Shown: one piece after another, positions 37,078 through 48,646 of the stretch
Layout: every line of letters begins with the position of its first letter
Position numbering within the stretch: the first letter of the stretch is position 1
Assembly: GCF_000760215.1 (NCBI RefSeq)
Contig: NZ_JNAW01000002.1
Coordinates: forward strand, 124,001-188,000
DNA length: 64,000 nt
Reading direction: 5' to 3'
Source: Prochlorococcus sp. MIT 0603
GTDB taxonomy: Bacteria; Cyanobacteriota; Cyanobacteriia; PCC-6307; Cyanobiaceae
Translations under genes and position numbers: made by a program
The notes under the pieces: model-generated
The model's database searches: none
What the model saw: only the letters and a program-made list of their open reading frames with translations
Told to the model about the DNA's origin: nothing

Positions 37078-38343
<1,266 letters not shown>

Positions 38344-38488
38344 TTAAGTTCTATCTTTAACTTGCATCTAATAATCGAAAGATGCAATTACTATCAGGAA
38401 AAATTCGGAATTCAATATATATTTTGTTGCTTTTTGTTTTTAGCTTTTCTCTTGAAAACTTGCTTGCTTGGTCAAAAACACTCGAATA

Positions 38489-38860
38489 TTAGTTCCTCCA
38501 ATATGTTGTTTCTTTGTCTTCAGCCCGAGATAGTTTCCAAACATTTCTACTGATTCTTTGAGCTAAAAGGCCACCGCGCTCTGTTTTAGATGAGCCAGGC
38601 TTTGCTCCTAGAAGATATTTAACCTCACTAGTGCTTAGTGGAGCACCTGTTTTTGTGGCCAAGTCTATAAGTTCGAGGCGTTGTCGAAGATTATGTAGGT
38701 CAAACTTCTCTTCATTATCTTCAACTAATCTTAATCTTGAAGTTCCTACTCGAGATATTTTTTGCATCATGCCTAGTCCTACTAATCCAAGGGCTTGTTC
38801 AGGGTTTAACTCGCTTGGTATAGCTTGAGAGTTTGTATTGGGATTGGGTGAGGCAGACAT
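38489..38860 (-). CDS. Conserved cyanobacterial protein of unknown function
   Basis: The soluble protein has 123 residues and no membrane segment. After a disordered N-terminus of 20 residues it has an ALGLVGLGMMQKIS helix, a charged region, and a C-terminal part (LSTSEVKYLLGAKPGSSKTERGGL and VWKLSR) resembling small helical DNA- or protein-binding domains. I do not recognise a named family. It lies between chlN and csoS1D and is divergent from csoS1D across 99 bp. That spacer probably holds both promoters. Confidence 0.7.
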   Translation of the reverse strand: MSASPNPNTNSQAIPSELNPEQALGLVGLGMMQKISRVGTSRLRLVEDNEEKFDLHNLRQRLELIDLATKTGAPLSTSEVKYLLGAKPGSSKTERGGLLAQRISRNVWKLSRAEDKETTYWRN

Positions 38861-38959
38861 CTTTTTTCATTGTATTTCTTAGAAGGTATCGGTTCGGATT
38901 TAAGCTTGCAAGACTTTGTTGTTTACTAAAACTACAACCTTTGAGGTATTATCCCTCCC

Positions 38960-39730
38960 ATGAGTGCTTTGACTGGCTTTCCAAATGATGAGCGGAGACT
39001 CTCTGGGAGTTCGCTTGTAACAGGTTCTGAGGTTGGCCCTCAGGCTGGAGCAAGCTGCGTTATTACTACTGACTCGGAAAAATCACTTGTATCTCGTCAG
39101 GCTAGTCATGTTCAACAAATTGAGTTAAGAACGTACGTATTTTTAGATTCACTTCAACCTCAGCTTGCTGCCTATATGGGTACAGTGAGCCAAGGGTTCC
39201 TTCCTATCCCTGGTGATGCTTGTCTTTGGATGGAAGTGTCTCCAGGCATGGCTGTTCATAGAGTTACTGATATCGCTCTGAAAGCGAGCAACGTTAGGCT
39301 AGGTCAAATGGTTGTAGAAAGGGCTTTTGGTTCTTTAGCTCTTTATCATCGAGATCAAAGTACTGTTCTTCATTCTGGTGATGTTGTATTAGATGCCATT
39401 GGAAGTAGCGTTGATAGACGAACTAAGCCTCAAATTAGCTGGACTGAAGTTATTAGAGCTATTACGCCAGATCATGCTGTTTTGATTAACCGTCAAAACA
39501 GAAGAGGATCTATGATCCAATCTGGAATGAGTATGTTTATTTTAGAAACTGAGCCAGCAGGCTATGTTTTAATGGCTGCAAATGAAGCAGAGAAGGCTTC
39601 TAATATTACTGTTGTTGATGTAAAAGGAGTTGGTGCCTTTGGTAGGCTAACTCTAGCTGGCAAAGAGGGTGACGTTGAAGAGGCGGCAGCAGCTGCAATG
39701 AGATCAATTGATCAGATAAACCGTCAATAA
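38960..39730 (+). CDS. csoS1D: Carboxysome shell protein CsoS1D (tandem BMC domains)
   Basis: CsoS1D forms trimers that stack into a gated, wide-pore unit of the alpha-carboxysome shell, thought to pass larger metabolites such as RuBP. The 256-residue protein has about 50 disordered residues and then two circularly permuted BMC domains (about 52-150 and 155-255). The second carries [25 protein letters not shown] near the pore. It is separated from the main carboxysome operon by rdgB on the opposite strand, which is the usual picocyanobacterial order. Confidence 0.95.
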
Positions 39731-39747
39731 TAAAGAGAGAATATTGT

Positions 39748-40335
39748 TCACTGGAGCCCGATTGTTTTAAGAAGATAAGGGGCCAATGCTCTTGCTGCTT
39801 TTCCTCTGCTTCCTAATTTTGTTAATTGTTCTTGGCTGAGCTCCCCATAAGTACAATTTGCTTCTCTTACCCAAAAGATCGATTCAAATTCGCCTTTTGG
39901 GTATGCAGGTTTTCTTAAGATCTCACCCCAACAGGTTCCTTGTGCATCATGAATGTGATTACCTTCTGGATCGCATAGAACCATTACGCTGCAAAAGCGA
40001 GCACTTCGATATGGCGTGTCTGCAAGTTCGTTTAGAAGCTTGTTGACCTTGATTTCGTTAGATTCAGCAAATCGTGCAGAGTAAATACCTGGTCCACCTT
40101 GCAAGGCATCTACTTCTAATCCAGAATCATCTGCAATTGTCCATGAGTTAGTTAATTTTGCAGTTGCTTTTGCTTTTAATATGGCATTCTCTAAATAAGT
40201 TGACCCACTTTCTTCTACTTCAAAATTGTCTGGCTGACGTTGAACTTTCAGAGGGAGAGGCCCTAGCATGAATTCAATTTCTGCAACCTTTTTAGGGTTC
40301 CCACTAGCAATTGTAAGTAGTGGTTTGATCAACAT
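39748..40335 (-). CDS. rdgB: XTP/dITP pyrophosphatase (RdgB/HAM1)
   Basis: RdgB removes non-canonical purine nucleotides (XTP, ITP) from the pool. The 195 residues have IASGNPKKVAEIEFML (about 8-23), the acidic ADDSGLEVDAL motif (about 67-77), GGPGIYSARFA, and SRGKAARAL near the C-terminus. The gene is convergent with csoS1D with a 17-bp gap and divergent from csoS1 across the 341-bp leader. Confidence 0.95.
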   Translation of the reverse strand: MLIKPLLTIASGNPKKVAEIEFMLGPLPLKVQRQPDNFEVEESGSTYLENAILKAKATAKLTNSWTIADDSGLEVDALQGGPGIYSARFAESNEIKVNKLLNELADTPYRSARFCSVMVLCDPEGNHIHDAQGTCWGEILRKPAYPKGEFESIFWVREANCTYGELSQEQLTKLGSRGKAARALAPYLLKTIGLQ

Positions 40336-40407
40336 AAAGAGTTTTTAAATCTAGTTAGGTGTTGGCTTATTAAAGTACTCGATAAATAATTTGAGACAGG
40401 ATGGGGT

Positions 40408-40423
40408 TGAACATTCCATACCT
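40408..40423 (+). repeat. Direct repeat copy 1 (TGAACATTCCATACCT)
   Basis: This 16-bp sequence recurs at 40643-40658 with a single change (T to A at the twelfth base). The two copies are 235 bp apart, one distal and one immediately before the csoS1 start region. The core GAACATTC is an imperfect palindrome. Such paired sites could bind a carbon-responsive regulator such as a LysR-type CbbR/RbcR protein; this is inference. Confidence 0.45.
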
Positions 40424-40546
40424 AGGCTATGCCTTGGGCACCTGCCTCTGTTAAAGAAAATAATCCTAAAAAGGAAATAACACAAATGTTTGTTTGGCGG
40501 TGCTGACGAGATATTTAACAGCCTCTTGTATCAGTCAGCGCAAGGG

Positions 40547-40565
40547 TGATAAGTTTATCTTATCA
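40547..40565. repeat. 7-bp palindrome with 5-nt loop in the csoS1 leader
   Basis: TGATAAG-TTTAT-CTTATCA is a perfect inverted repeat, about 110 bp before the csoS1 start. It could be an operator or an mRNA hairpin. No T-run follows, so it is not a classical terminator. Confidence 0.4.
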
Positions 40566-40642
40566 ATGAGAGAGGATACCGTGATCGCTTTTTTAATGAA
40601 TTTCCCTTGACGTACAAGTGCTTAAGAAGTCATTGTCTGTTG

Positions 40643-40658
40643 TGAACATTCCAAACCT
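40643..40658 (+). repeat. Direct repeat copy 2 (TGAACATTCCAAACCT)
   Basis: This is the second copy of the repeat at 40408-40423, matching 15 of 16 bases. It ends 18 bp before the csoS1 ATG, so a bound protein here could block transcription or the ribosome binding region, depending on where transcription starts. Confidence 0.45.
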
Positions 40659-40676
40659 TTATTTCTCGTAAGGCAT

Positions 40677-40988
40677 ATGGCTAACGAAACTATGGGCATC
40701 GCACTCGGCATGATCGAGACTCGCGGACTTGTCCCAGCTATTGAAGCTGCTGACGCAATGACTAAGGCTGCTGAAGTGCGCCTTATAGGTCGTGAATTTG
40801 TTGGTGGCGGTTATGTAACCGTTTTAGTACGTGGCGAAACTGGTGCAGTTAATGCTGCTGTTCGTGCTGGCGCTGACGCATGTGAGCGTGTAGGTGATGG
40901 ACTTGTTGCTGCTCACATTATTGCTCGTCCTCATAGAGAAGTTGAGCCTGCATTGGGCAACGGCAACTTCCTTGGTCAGAAGGACTGA
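40677..40988 (+). CDS. csoS1: Carboxysome shell hexamer protein CsoS1
   Basis: This is the main BMC-domain shell facet protein of the alpha-carboxysome. The 103 residues consist almost entirely of one BMC domain (GIALGMIETRGLVPAIEAADAM to AAHIIARPHREVEP), with the pore loop around FVGGGYV. Codon use is richer in GC and preferred codons than its surroundings, as expected for a highly expressed gene. A ribosome site (GTAAGG) lies 4-9 bases before the ATG. A hairpin follows before cbbL. Confidence 0.97.
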   Translation: MANETMGIALGMIETRGLVPAIEAADAMTKAAEVRLIGREFVGGGYVTVLVRGETGAVNAAVRAGADACERVGDGLVAAHIIARPHREVEPALGNGNFLGQKD

Positions 40989-40996
40989 AGTCTAAA

Positions 40997-41018
40997 GCGC
41001 TTTATTTAAGAAAAGCGC
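40997..41018 (+). promoter_or_regulatory. Hairpin between csoS1 and cbbL
   Basis: GCGCTTT pairs perfectly with AAAGCGC across an 8-nt loop in the 69-bp gap. There is no T-run after it, so it more likely stabilises the csoS1 mRNA 3' end, marks a processing site or gives partial termination. The function is inferred. Confidence 0.5.
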
Positions 41019-41057
41019 GATTTCAAATCCCTACAACGACCTAAAAGGAGTTATTTT

Positions 41058-42470
41058 ATGAGTAAGAAGTATGACGCTGGGGTTAAGGAGTACAGAGACA
41101 CCTACTGGACTCCCGACTATGTCCCCCTAGATACAGACCTTTTGGCTTGCTTTAAATGCACAGGCCAAGAAGGAGTTCCAAGAGAGGAAGTAGCTGCTGC
41201 GGTAGCTGCAGAATCTTCAACAGGTACTTGGTCTACAGTGTGGTCTGAATTGCTAACTGACCTTGAATTTTATAAGGGACGTTGCTATCGCATTGAAGAC
41301 GTTCCTGGAGATAAGGAATCTTTCTATGCATTTATTGCATATCCACTAGATCTTTTTGAAGAAGGATCAATCACAAATGTGCTGACTTCATTGGTCGGTA
41401 ATGTTTTTGGATTTAAAGCTTTACGCCATTTGCGTTTAGAAGATATCCGCTTCCCAATGGCCTTCATTAAAACCTGTGGAGGGCCACCTCAAGGAATCGT
41501 TGTAGAGCGTGACCGTTTAAATAAGTATGGTCGTCCTCTACTTGGTTGCACTATTAAGCCTAAGCTTGGCTTGTCTGGCAAAAACTATGGACGTGTGGTC
41601 TATGAATGCCTTCGAGGTGGATTAGATCTTACAAAAGATGATGAGAACATAAACTCACAGCCCTTCCAGAGATGGAGAGATCGTTTTGAGTTTGTTGCTG
41701 AAGCTGTAAAGCTTGCTCAGCAAGAGACTGGTGAAGTTAAAGGCCATTATCTTAATTGTACAGCTACTACTCCTGAAGAGATGTATGAGCGTGCAGAGTT
41801 CGCTAAAGAACTTGATATGCCTATTATCATGCATGATTACATTACCGGTGGCTTTACTGCTAACACAGGATTAGCTAATTGGTGTCGTAAGAATGGCATG
41901 TTGCTTCATATCCATAGAGCAATGCATGCGGTAATTGACCGTCATCCAAAGCATGGAATTCACTTCCGTGTTCTAGCTAAGTGTTTACGTCTGTCAGGTG
42001 GTGATCAACTTCACACTGGAACAGTTGTAGGTAAGTTGGAAGGTGACCGTCAAACAACTCTTGGGTATATCGACAATTTACGTGAATCCTTCGTCCCAGA
42101 AGACCGTACTCGCGGTAACTTCTTCGACCAGGATTGGGGCTCTATGCCGGGCGTATTTGCTGTTGCTTCAGGTGGTATCCATGTATGGCATATGCCAGCT
42201 TTGCTTGCAATCTTTGGTGACGATTCATGTCTTCAGTTTGGTGGCGGAACTCATGGACACCCATGGGGATCAGCTGCTGGTGCAGCTGCCAACCGCGTAG
42301 CTTTAGAAGCATGTGTTAAGGCACGTAATGCAGGTAGAGAAATCGAGAAGGAAAGTCGCGACATCCTTATGGAAGCTGCGAAGCATAGTCCTGAGTTAGC
42401 TATTGCACTTGAGACCTGGAAGGAGATCAAGTTCGAGTTTGACACTGTAGATAAGCTCGACGTTCAGTAA
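41058..42470 (+). CDS. cbbL: Rubisco large subunit (form IA)
   Basis: The enzyme carboxylates RuBP inside the carboxysome. The 470 residues include the [14 protein letters not shown] segment, [16 protein letters not shown] (catalytic lysine), and [17 protein letters not shown] (carbamylated lysine and metal ligands, about 197-213). The loop 6 lysine is in the VVGKLEGD segment. The form IA character, carboxysome location and length match marine picocyanobacteria. A strong AAGGAG site lies 8 bases before the ATG. Confidence 0.99.
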
Positions 42471-42482
42471 AAGCAAAATCAT

Positions 42483-42503
42483 GAGGAGGCTTTATGTCTC
42501 CTC
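42483..42503 (+). promoter_or_regulatory. Hairpin between cbbL and cbbS
   Basis: GAGGAGGC pairs with GTCTCCTC (8 bp, one G-U) across the loop TTTAT, 12 bp after the cbbL stop and 71 bp before cbbS. The next bases (TGACTTTCC) are not a strong U-tract. It may protect the cbbL message or tune the large-to-small subunit ratio; this is inference. Confidence 0.5.
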
Positions 42504-42574
42504 TGACTTTCCTTCCCAAATAAGTTCCGAATAACTTTATCGGAATACTTTTCTATCCTTTTTAAAAGTTCACC

Positions 42575-42916
42575 ATGCCTTTTCAGAGCACAGTTGGTGA
42601 CTATCAAACAGTCGCCACCCTGGAGACATTCGGCTTCTTGCCTCCAATGTCACAGGACGAAATTTACGACCAAATTGCTTACATCATTGCTCAGGGTTGG
42701 AGCCCTGTGATTGAGCATGTTCACCCCAGTGGTTCCATGCAGACTTATTGGTCTTATTGGAAGTTACCTTTCTTTGGTGAAAAAGATTTGAATGTCGTTG
42801 TTAGCGAGTTAGAAGCTTGCCACCGTGCATATCCAGATCACCATGTTCGAATGGTTGGCTATGACGCTTATACCCAAAGTCAGGGTACAGCTTTTGTAGT
42901 TTTCGAAGGTCGCTAA
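42575..42916 (+). CDS. cbbS: Rubisco small subunit (form IA)
   Basis: The 113-residue small subunit caps the L8S8 holoenzyme and helps dock onto CsoS2. It has the family sequences YQTVATLETFGFLPPMS, EHVHPSGSMQTYWSYWKLP and the C-terminal GYDAYTQSQGTAFVVFEGR. No obvious ribosome binding site precedes the ATG at 42575, in contrast to cbbL. Confidence 0.98.
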   Translation: MPFQSTVGDYQTVATLETFGFLPPMSQDEIYDQIAYIIAQGWSPVIEHVHPSGSMQTYWSYWKLPFFGEKDLNVVVSELEACHRAYPDHHVRMVGYDAYTQSQGTAFVVFEGR

Positions 42917-47493: not shown

Positions 47494-48003
47494 ATGACTT
47501 CTTCTAATCCACTCAACAGCTCTAAAGCAAAACAAAAGATAAAAAACATCGATGCTTCAAAGCAAATAGTTGATGTTGAAACCGGTTCTACTAAGCCAAA
47601 GGAAGTTTCATCTCAAACTAAAAGTGCTAAGAATTCCACTGGATCTGGAAGGAATTCAAATACTAATAATCCTCCATACAACAATTCTTCCTCGAAGTAT
47701 GGTCCGATTTCTGGTATTGCTTTAGGAATGATTGAGACACGTGGTATGGTCCCAGCTATAGAGGCAGCAGATGCTATGACAAAAGCTGCAGAGGTGAATT
47801 TAGTTGCTAGAGAATATATTGGAGGTGGATACGTGAGTGTTCTAGTACGTGGCGAAACTGGAGCAGTAAATGCTTCTGTTAGGGCAGGAGCTGATGCCTG
47901 TGAGCGTGTTGGAGACGGATTGGTGGCTGCACATATTATTGCTCGGCCTCATGTCGAAGTGGAACCTATCCTTCAAGTTAGTGGAGCAACTCGTCGCCTT
48001 TGA
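47494..48003 (+). CDS. csoS1E: BMC shell protein with N-terminal extension (CsoS1E-type)
   Basis: The 169-residue protein has a BMC domain (about 72-160) very similar to CsoS1: GIALGMIETRGMVPAIEAADAM to AAHIIARPH. It is preceded by about 70 disordered residues rich in Ser, Asn, Lys and Thr. The C-terminus ends VSGATRRL. It lies at the end of the carboxysome operon, 36 bp after csoS4B. Extended CsoS1-like proteins of this kind are known in low-light Prochlorococcus and Synechococcus. The tail may bind cargo or shape the shell; that is inference. Confidence 0.92.
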   Translation: MTSSNPLNSSKAKQKIKNIDASKQIVDVETGSTKPKEVSSQTKSAKNSTGSGRNSNTNNPPYNNSSSKYGPISGIALGMIETRGMVPAIEAADAMTKAAEVNLVAREYIGGGYVSVLVRGETGAVNASVRAGADACERVGDGLVAAHIIARPHVEVEPILQVSGATRRL

Positions 48004-48335: not shown

Positions 48336-48560
48336 TCACTCTTTACCTTCAGAGATGTCACGTTTAATTAGTGCCATTAAGTAAGCAGGAGCCTTATACC
48401 TTCCAGGTAGGCACCTATTAAGGGTCTCTAAATGCCCCCAGCAGACTGTTCTCTCAATCTCTTGGCGAGTGCGACCTAGTTCAAGAAGCCTCCTAAGAGC
48501 TTTGCAGTAGAGAGGATAACCAGCCTCGAGTTCTCCAATTGTTAGCTTGGCTGCGGACAT
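48336..48560 (-). CDS. Small conserved-looking protein of unknown function beside acRAF
   Basis: From the ATG at 48560 this is a 74-residue soluble, helical protein: LTIGELEAGYPLYCKALRRLLELG, RTVCWGHLETLNRCLPGRYKAPAYLMALIKRDI. A TTG at 48593 would add 11 residues. It has three cysteines and a CWGHLE motif that looks structured. Codons are coherent with a real gene. It faces the carboxysome operon convergently, 18 bp from acRAF. I do not recognise a family; a carboxysome-related role rests only on position. Confidence 0.65.
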   Translation of the reverse strand: MSAAKLTIGELEAGYPLYCKALRRLLELGRTRQEIERTVCWGHLETLNRCLPGRYKAPAYLMALIKRDISEGKE

Positions 48561-48646
48561 GTTTTGTCGCAGGTCAACACTTAATCTAGACAATTATGTG
48601 ACCGGCATGCAAATCAAATATCAAAAATCAAGCGATTTTTTGACTT

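Follow-up and report, generated by a model that had tools for sequence, protein, structure and literature searches.

RoxS of Bacillus subtilis blocks RNase J1, lengthening the half-life of yflS mRNA, and FasX of Streptococcus pyogenes is cited as stabilising ska likewise (PMC5419742). Among cyanobacteria, RblR of Synechocystis PCC 6803 is an antisense RNA of 113 nucleotides (nt) that is fully complementary to rbcL and acts positively (PMC5306279), and an affinity pull-down with the small RNA (sRNA) Yfr10 of Prochlorococcus MED4 enriched csoS1 and csoS2 mRNA (PMC6778093). The motif of the regulator RbcR reads ATTA(G/A)-N5-(C/T)TAAT, with activation from about 90 nt before the start (2026 review, PMC13249358). 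Finally, Axmann 2005 lists as cluster 87 a 'region upstream of the rbcLS cluster containing conserved promoter' (PMC1242208, Table 1; NT, MIT and WH8 columns), which is probably the same spacer as the one analysed here. Our statements about these systems hold for the excerpts of the sources cited. The subject of this report is the spacer before csoS1 in a stretch of 64,000 nucleotides from Prochlorococcus sp. MIT 0603 (contig NZ_JNAW01000002.1, positions 124,001 to 188,000; the window hereafter), which contains a 16-bp direct repeat. The comparisons described below favour the view that each copy is one half of a single RNA–RNA interaction, in which an RNA from the side of the neighbouring gene ham1 would pair with the 5′ end of csoS1 mRNA.

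Copy 1, TGAACATTCCATACCT, and copy 2, TGAACATTCCAAACCT, both read on the + strand, are identical at 15 of 16 positions and lie 235 bp apart from start to start (coordinates in Table 1). They are located in a 341-bp spacer (40336–40676) with ham1 on its left, transcribed away from csoS1. These values, obtained by direct scan, confirm what the original prediction had read from the window. The copies are the only matches to TGAACATTCCAWACCT with fewer than three mismatches in the 64-kb window, where two more have exactly three. They are also the only matches with fewer than two mismatches in the 1.75-Mb genome, which holds eight others with exactly two.

The pair is conserved well beyond this genome, which is firmer evidence than an estimate of chance could give. 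From genus, family and named species collections we gathered 211 usable csoS1 loci with 189 distinct upstream sequences; the set excludes copies of csoS1 that lie too close to the end of a contig, whose match starts after residue 6 or whose identity is below 91%. Both copies occur in 144 of the 189 distinct upstream regions, including all 37 named Prochlorococcus loci, and their spacing is 229–238 nt in 141 of the 144 (257, 278 and 306 nt in the other three). The pair and its spacing are thus maintained in relatives, a point that the original prediction had named as its own check. The core 9-mers of the two copies are identical in 140 of these 144 loci; the core of copy 2 reads GAACATTCC in 138, GAACATCCC in five and GAACAATCC in one. 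Of the loci scanned, 142 passed into the repeat alignment, one false copy 1 (L156) included, and 80 representatives were aligned. Wherever copy 1 stands in this standard place, ham1 is divergent and less than 500 nt away (144 of 144). We consider the repeat pair, conserved as it is in the promoter and leader region of the carboxysome operon, very probably functional.

Read on the ham1 strand, copy 1 is part of a hairpin. In relatives of the window it lies between the stem arms GAGRCAGG and CCTGTCTC, and other genomes carry different arms in the same role, such as GCAGCGGT with ACCGCTGC, GTGAAACGGG with CCCGTTTCAC and GGAACCGGC with GCCGGTTCC. In the window, stem P1 pairs 40441–40448 with 40393–40400 and encloses hairpin P2 and a short arm, P3, the loop of which displays AAUGUUCAA. 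The overall shape is probably a three-way junction. A collection of such hairpins started from 246 stem candidates, of which a csoS1-start filter removed 115 that were copy 2 read on the minus strand. The remaining 131 were cut to one per locus with a score of at least 20 and freed of a hand list of loci not linked to ham1 (L039, L084, L086, L087, L089, L090, L094, L103, L104 and L106, where present), leaving 119 hairpins, 110 of them distinct. In an alignment of 55 of these 110 (A1), all seven pairs of P1 show changes on both sides, with 46 double-changed cells as compared to 10.1 in shuffles, and 90.0% of the P1 cells are paired versus at most 46.2% when slid. A second alignment (A2) of 17 sequences shows P1, P2 and P3 paired in 97.3% of cells against 91.2% in shuffles, the former value being optimistic because these sequences were picked for alignability. 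The bases of AAUGUUCA have mean unpaired probabilities of 0.64–0.96; those of the two G's just before are 0.23 and 0.11.

The promoter signature places this hairpin on the ham1 strand. A TANNNT box lies 2–10 nt before the stem in 109 of the 110 distinct hairpins on that strand (27.1 expected), as compared to 12 of 110 on the csoS1 strand (31.2 expected). The box is accompanied by TTG at a distance of 15–19 nt in 80 of the 109, and of exactly 17 nt in 74. The window conforms to this pattern with the predicted promoter TTGTGT-N17-TATTTT and a start near 40450. G·U pairs point in the same direction when only Watson–Crick pairs are rewarded, with 29 on the ham1 strand versus seven on the csoS1 strand (110 hairpins). 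A location of copy 1 in a + strand leader or upstream sRNA was also considered; both the strand on which the promoter signature lies and the neutral G·U count speak against it.

Copy 2 holds the corresponding position in front of csoS1. A TTGACG or TTGACT element is found upstream of it in 183 of the 185 loci counted, and a −10 hexamer of the form CANNNT (CATTGT, CATTCT, CAATGT and others) in 178 of the 182 loci covered by twelve listed hexamers. The layout is TTGACG/T, 18 nt, the CANNNT hexamer, 7 nt and then the G of GAACATTCC. In most of 124 non-Prochlorococcus genomes with a readable csoS1 stretch, this G sits 32 nt past TTGAC. Copy 2 is therefore predicted to start at +1 of the csoS1 mRNA, where a sigma-70 polymerase should begin. 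In the window, the predicted +1 is 40644, which would give a 5′ leader of 33 nt and an mRNA beginning with 5′-GAACAUUCCA.

Together, these two predictions would give a pair of complementary RNAs. On the ham1 strand the loop of copy 1, GGAAUGUUCA, is complementary to csoS1 mRNA from +1 to about +10/15. Over 63 distinct combinations of copy 1 and copy 2, each position from +1 to +9 matches in 61–63, and the base just 5′ of +1 is unable to pair in 43. RNA pairing would naturally give a match that stops, as this one mostly does, at the transcription start; for a DNA-binding site there is no evident reason for such a boundary. The best duplex begins at the predicted first nucleotide of the mRNA in all 119 distinct RNA pairs, with a mean energy of −37.2 kcal/mol as compared to −19.4 kcal/mol for shuffled leaders, or −12.3 versus −2.1 net of folding. 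Own partners also pair better than swapped ones (−24.7 versus −22.3; none of 2000 permutations was as good), and they still do so with one sequence per cluster at 67, 50 and 26 clusters (none of 5000 permutations). Other mRNA targets in the same genome were dropped, since the six additional occurrences of GAACATTCCA all lie within long open frames.

We then asked how the hairpin is distributed. A covariance model built from the hairpins (R1), whose training set includes that of the window, scores 60 bits at 40390–40451 on the − strand; this is the one strong match in the genome, and the next reaches 14 bits. In the family, 260 of the 400 genomes scanned have a match. A class sample of 145 genomes gave 12, all within the family, and none in the 131 genomes outside it, 18 of which are listed as such while the rest were assigned by list order. 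Both scans used stricter filters that lose weak matches, and the family scan missed five genomes from one marine group with a visible copy 1 (G270, G276, G282, G294 and G316). Phages are an improbable carrier: a viral scan returned 28 exact-pattern matches, probably by chance, with a best covariance score of 19.9 bits (E 0.056). A second GAACATTCC at the spongiarum locus L089 was dropped because no hairpin matches there. Genome G014 shows two equal-score hairpin matches about 34.5 kb apart on contig C17, and it also has two rbcL matches; the double hairpin could be either a duplication or an assembly artefact.

The position of the hairpin changes with that of ham1. In Cyanobium, Vulcanococcus and similar relatives, ham1 is located 1.4–2.4 kb from csoS1, and in those of them that have the hairpin, it stands in front of ham1, 1.6–1.9 kb from csoS1. 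All five distant-ham1 loci that were checked (L069, L071, L073, L078 and L082) carry the TANNNT box before the stem. As judged from these arrangements, the hairpin follows ham1, not csoS1. Four of these Cyanobium-like loci (L069, L071, L073 and L078) have about 1.7–2 kb of extra sequence between the two genes, in which a frame seemingly ends shortly before csoS1. At four other loci (L067, L212, L214 and L226), ham1 is only about 190–201 nt from csoS1, no hairpin is present, and the expected mRNA start reads differently (GGGACCCTCC and others).

Loss of the hairpin and loss of an intact copy 2 tend to coincide. In the 124 non-Prochlorococcus genomes introduced above, 28 of which have no ham1 in the stretch, we scored the hairpin by a covariance match from the family scan (list typed by hand) or by the motif near ham1, and copy 2 as intact if it reads GAACATTCC or GAACATCCC. 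With the hairpin present, copy 2 is intact in 79 genomes and altered in one; with the hairpin absent, it is intact in 15 and altered in 29 (Fisher p 3.5e-16, uncorrected for relatedness, which was gauged by genus labels and k-mer clusters alone). Genomes with adjacent ham1 follow this trend: hairpin with intact copy 2 in 40, hairpin with altered copy 2 in one, intact copy 2 alone in five and neither in 12. Of the 38 genomes with ham1 more than 500 nt off, 29 have both parts, seven have lost only the hairpin and two have lost both. The altered copies span 11 genus labels, three of which (g30, g34 and g59) also include genomes with both parts. Five g34 genomes show the same T-to-C difference in both copies, each reading GAACATCCC.

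Such co-loss would also be expected of paired DNA sites, where a regulator would bind GAACATTCC at the csoS1 start and a second time just within the divergent transcript on the ham1 side, with repression or looping of both promoters as the result. The constant spacing of 229–238 nt in 141 of 144 loci fits this model, as do the predicted promoters near both copies and the near-palindromic GAAnnTTC. We consider it unlikely, since copy 1 is within a covarying stem whose promoter signature is confined to one strand, the copies are 1.6–1.9 kb apart in many Cyanobium-like genomes, and their match mostly breaks just before the predicted +1. The same three observations tell against the pair of LysR-type operators put forward in the original prediction: the 229–238 nt of most adjacent loci give way to 1.6–1.9 kb in those genomes, so that a workable distance within one promoter region is not kept. 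In addition, the two copies are in antisense orientation wherever both could be placed, the core GAACATTCC differs from the published RbcR motif, and the one LysR-type gene of the genome has a better-fitting site elsewhere in the spacer.

This site is an RbcR-like dyad, ATAAG-N5-CTTAT. At least eight of its ten positions are matched in all 189 loci (exactly in 122), a level reached by 5.1% of shuffled regions, and in 182 of the 189 its centre is 87–88 nt before the predicted csoS1 +1. The dyad of the window agrees with the published RbcR consensus at eight of ten positions. The genome encodes one gene with a LysR substrate domain, for whose product the dyad may be a candidate site. The idea of a carbon-responsive regulator does not hold for the repeat; it may well hold for the dyad, through which such a protein could act in the csoS1 spacer. 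The 341 bp would then hold two possible separate controls, an RbcR-like promoter site and an RNA facing the first bases of the mRNA.

From the conservation of the pair, the covariation in P1, the two promoter signatures, the complementarity that mostly ends at +1 and the co-loss, all of them read from the sequences themselves, we infer that both RNAs exist as predicted and pair in cells. In the mechanism that we propose, the divergent transcript toward ham1 would start with the hairpin carrying copy 1 as its loop. At the free 5′ end of the csoS1-rbcLS-carboxysome mRNA, the loop AAUGUUCA would act as the seed, from which pairing would proceed through P3 and along the 3′ arm of P2 until about 10–15 bp are formed. 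The duplex would cover the 5′ terminus of the mRNA and leave about 14–18 nt free before the start codon, which makes blocking of the ribosome less likely than altered 5′-end-dependent decay. The most likely result would be a changed stability of csoS1 mRNA, probably protection from such decay; this direction is again inferred. The effect would be coupled to the firing level of the ham1-side promoter, and the rate of transcription would be governed by RbcR, bound at a separate site 88 nt upstream. In its most specific form, this proposal makes the three-way junction of the ham1 leader a dedicated RNA lock on Rubisco and carboxysome mRNA, the loop capping the first ~10–15 nt and linking nucleotide-pool housekeeping to carboxysome synthesis. 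For this form, which says more than the pairing itself, we see the balance as even.

The same pairing could also act in reverse, with the 5′ end of csoS1 mRNA opening or blocking the ham1 leader hairpin, so that the rate of carboxysome transcription would set the expression of ham1. The structured partner does sit before ham1, roughly 45–90 nt from the aligned ham1 start. The hairpin shows no overlap with this start, the stretch between them looks unconserved, and in the csoS1 mRNA it is the 5′ terminus, the site at which decay enzymes act, that is conserved. These features make the reverse direction quite unlikely.

Several observations weigh against a loop that pairs with the csoS1 mRNA. As the hairpins were found with a motif filter, motif conservation within the set is partly by construction. 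The two pairs of P3 are invariant, hence without covariation support, and P3 rests on folding only; the fold of the window's hairpin has a z of −1.93, with six of 200 shuffles as good. The G·U strand test depends on scoring, since other rewards give 52:7, 30:49 and 60:49 (ham1 strand to csoS1 strand), and when the 110 hairpins are scored one by one, the ham1 strand is better in 42, equal in 47 and worse in 21. A simple terminator scan of 40250–40800 found none; because no terminator follows the hairpin there, the ham1-side RNA may be either a short RNA cut or stopped from the transcript or a long ham1 leader. From +11 to +15, the 63 combinations contain 36 differences compatible with G·U, 11 A·C and 36 others, a count biased by the fact that copy 1 also has to pair within P2 there. 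This same need of P2 can produce differences between own and swapped partners beyond +10. The cores of the two copies mismatch at three of the 144 loci (L076, L201 and L221), and they differ at a fourth (L014) in a manner that G·U pairing would tolerate. The genomes with altered copy 2 are phylogenetically clumped, with nine of 29 sharing a genus label, and no tree correction is built into the tests. Finally, copy 2 is intact in 15 of the 44 genomes in which no hairpin was detected, and in 26 of the 45 distinct loci where copy 1 is missing from its standard place (at some of them a hairpin is present farther off). Copy 2 may therefore have an additional function.

The intact copies in those 15 genomes would also suit a model of separate elements, in which copy 2 is a conserved initially transcribed sequence (for promoter escape, start selection or translation from the 5′ end), copy 1 is an independent ham1 leader element, and the sequence that they share goes back to something else, for example a single RNA-binding protein that acts on the + strand transcripts of both; with a + strand TANNNT box before the hairpin in only 12 of 110 cases, and chance identity of the 9-mers in 140 of 144 loci not credible, we regard this as very improbable.

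Table 1. Features of the csoS1 spacer and its flanking genes (window coordinates; promoter elements and RNA ends are predicted from sequence).
Feature	Position	Strand	Remarks
ham1 (Ham1 family), gene behind the hairpin	39748–40335	−	Pfam PF01725, E 1e-47
Hairpin RNA, predicted 5′ end of the ham1-sense transcript	40393–40448	−	P1 covariation; P3 from folding only
Copy 1	40408–40423		gives loop plus flank UGGAAUGUUCA when read on the − strand; complement of the predicted csoS1 mRNA 5′ end
Predicted −10 TATTTT, divergent ham1-side promoter	40457–40462	−	predicted +1 near 40449–40451
Predicted −35 TTGTGT, ham1-side promoter	40480–40485	−	17-nt spacer to −10
RbcR-like dyad ATAAG-N5-CTTAT	40549–40563	none	centre 88 nt before predicted csoS1 +1
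Predicted csoS1 −35 TTGACG	40607–40612	+	TTGACG/TTGACT conserved across loci
Predicted csoS1 −10 CATTGT	40631–40636	+	CANNNT form conserved across loci
Copy 2	40643–40658	+	predicted to supply nt 1–15 of csoS1 mRNA, counted from G 40644
csoS1 (BMC shell protein), leads the csoS1-rbcLS-carboxysome cluster	40677–40988	+	Pfam PF00936; open reading frame list

Two more genes of the window deserve mention. At the far end of the carboxysome cluster (47494–48003) lies another BMC gene of the csoS1 type, whose product is extended at the N terminus by about 70–75 residues; this gene also turned up in the genus-wide search for csoS1. Just past the cluster, on the opposite strand (48336–48593, −), a small conserved DUF3136 protein is encoded (PF11334, E 1.1e-34).

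The hairpin corresponds to no known RNA family in Rfam: at gathering scores the whole window returned just one tRNA, and a covariance search of 38000–42600 up to E 5 gave one sub-threshold snoRNA match. In the literature searched, which did not extend to subscription papers, we found neither this hairpin nor any RNA regulator of the alpha-carboxysome operon with a dedicated co-evolving site; a mapped start or transcript for the csoS1 spacer may already be in print. Prochlorococcus is described as an ocean phototroph of extreme abundance that possesses very few regulatory proteins (PMC2518516, as excerpted), and the picocyanobacteria that carry the hairpin fix a large share of ocean carbon. If confirmed experimentally, the interaction would place ocean carbon fixation by marine cyanobacteria under a newly recognised RNA control. 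The analysis provides a specific, testable RNA mechanism by which the carbon-fixation operon of Prochlorococcus may be tuned, and a covariance model with which the RNA can be found.

Among the described systems, cluster 87 of Axmann 2005 probably covers the same spacer. Its description, as given in the table cited, names a conserved promoter only; hairpin, antisense loop and the link to ham1 do not appear in that entry. Yfr10 is a different RNA from the hairpin, and according to the excerpt cited its motif is common to Yfr1. Regulation of Synechocystis rbc and ccm genes by RbcR, in the part of the review cited above (PMC13249358), has its counterpart in the similar dyad about 90 nt before the start, the repeat itself not being that site. 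With RblR, as far as its cited description goes, the hairpin RNA would share the character of a cyanobacterial antisense RNA on a Rubisco transcript. Unlike RblR, it would be a separate transcript with 9–15 nt of complementarity at the 5′ end of csoS1 mRNA, in cyanobacteria with alpha-carboxysomes. In mode of action, RoxS and FasX offer the nearest parallel, and protection of the csoS1 mRNA is proposed here by analogy to them. Unlike these RNAs, the hairpin RNA would arise as the 5′ end of a divergent transcript heading for ham1, from a place adjacent or close to its target; it uses a single hairpin loop and is predicted to pair from nucleotide +1. What it has in common with RoxS and FasX is extended complementarity to a defined mRNA site, a promoter of its own on the right strand, as indicated by its sequence signature, and a conserved structured RNA that presents the pairing bases in a loop.
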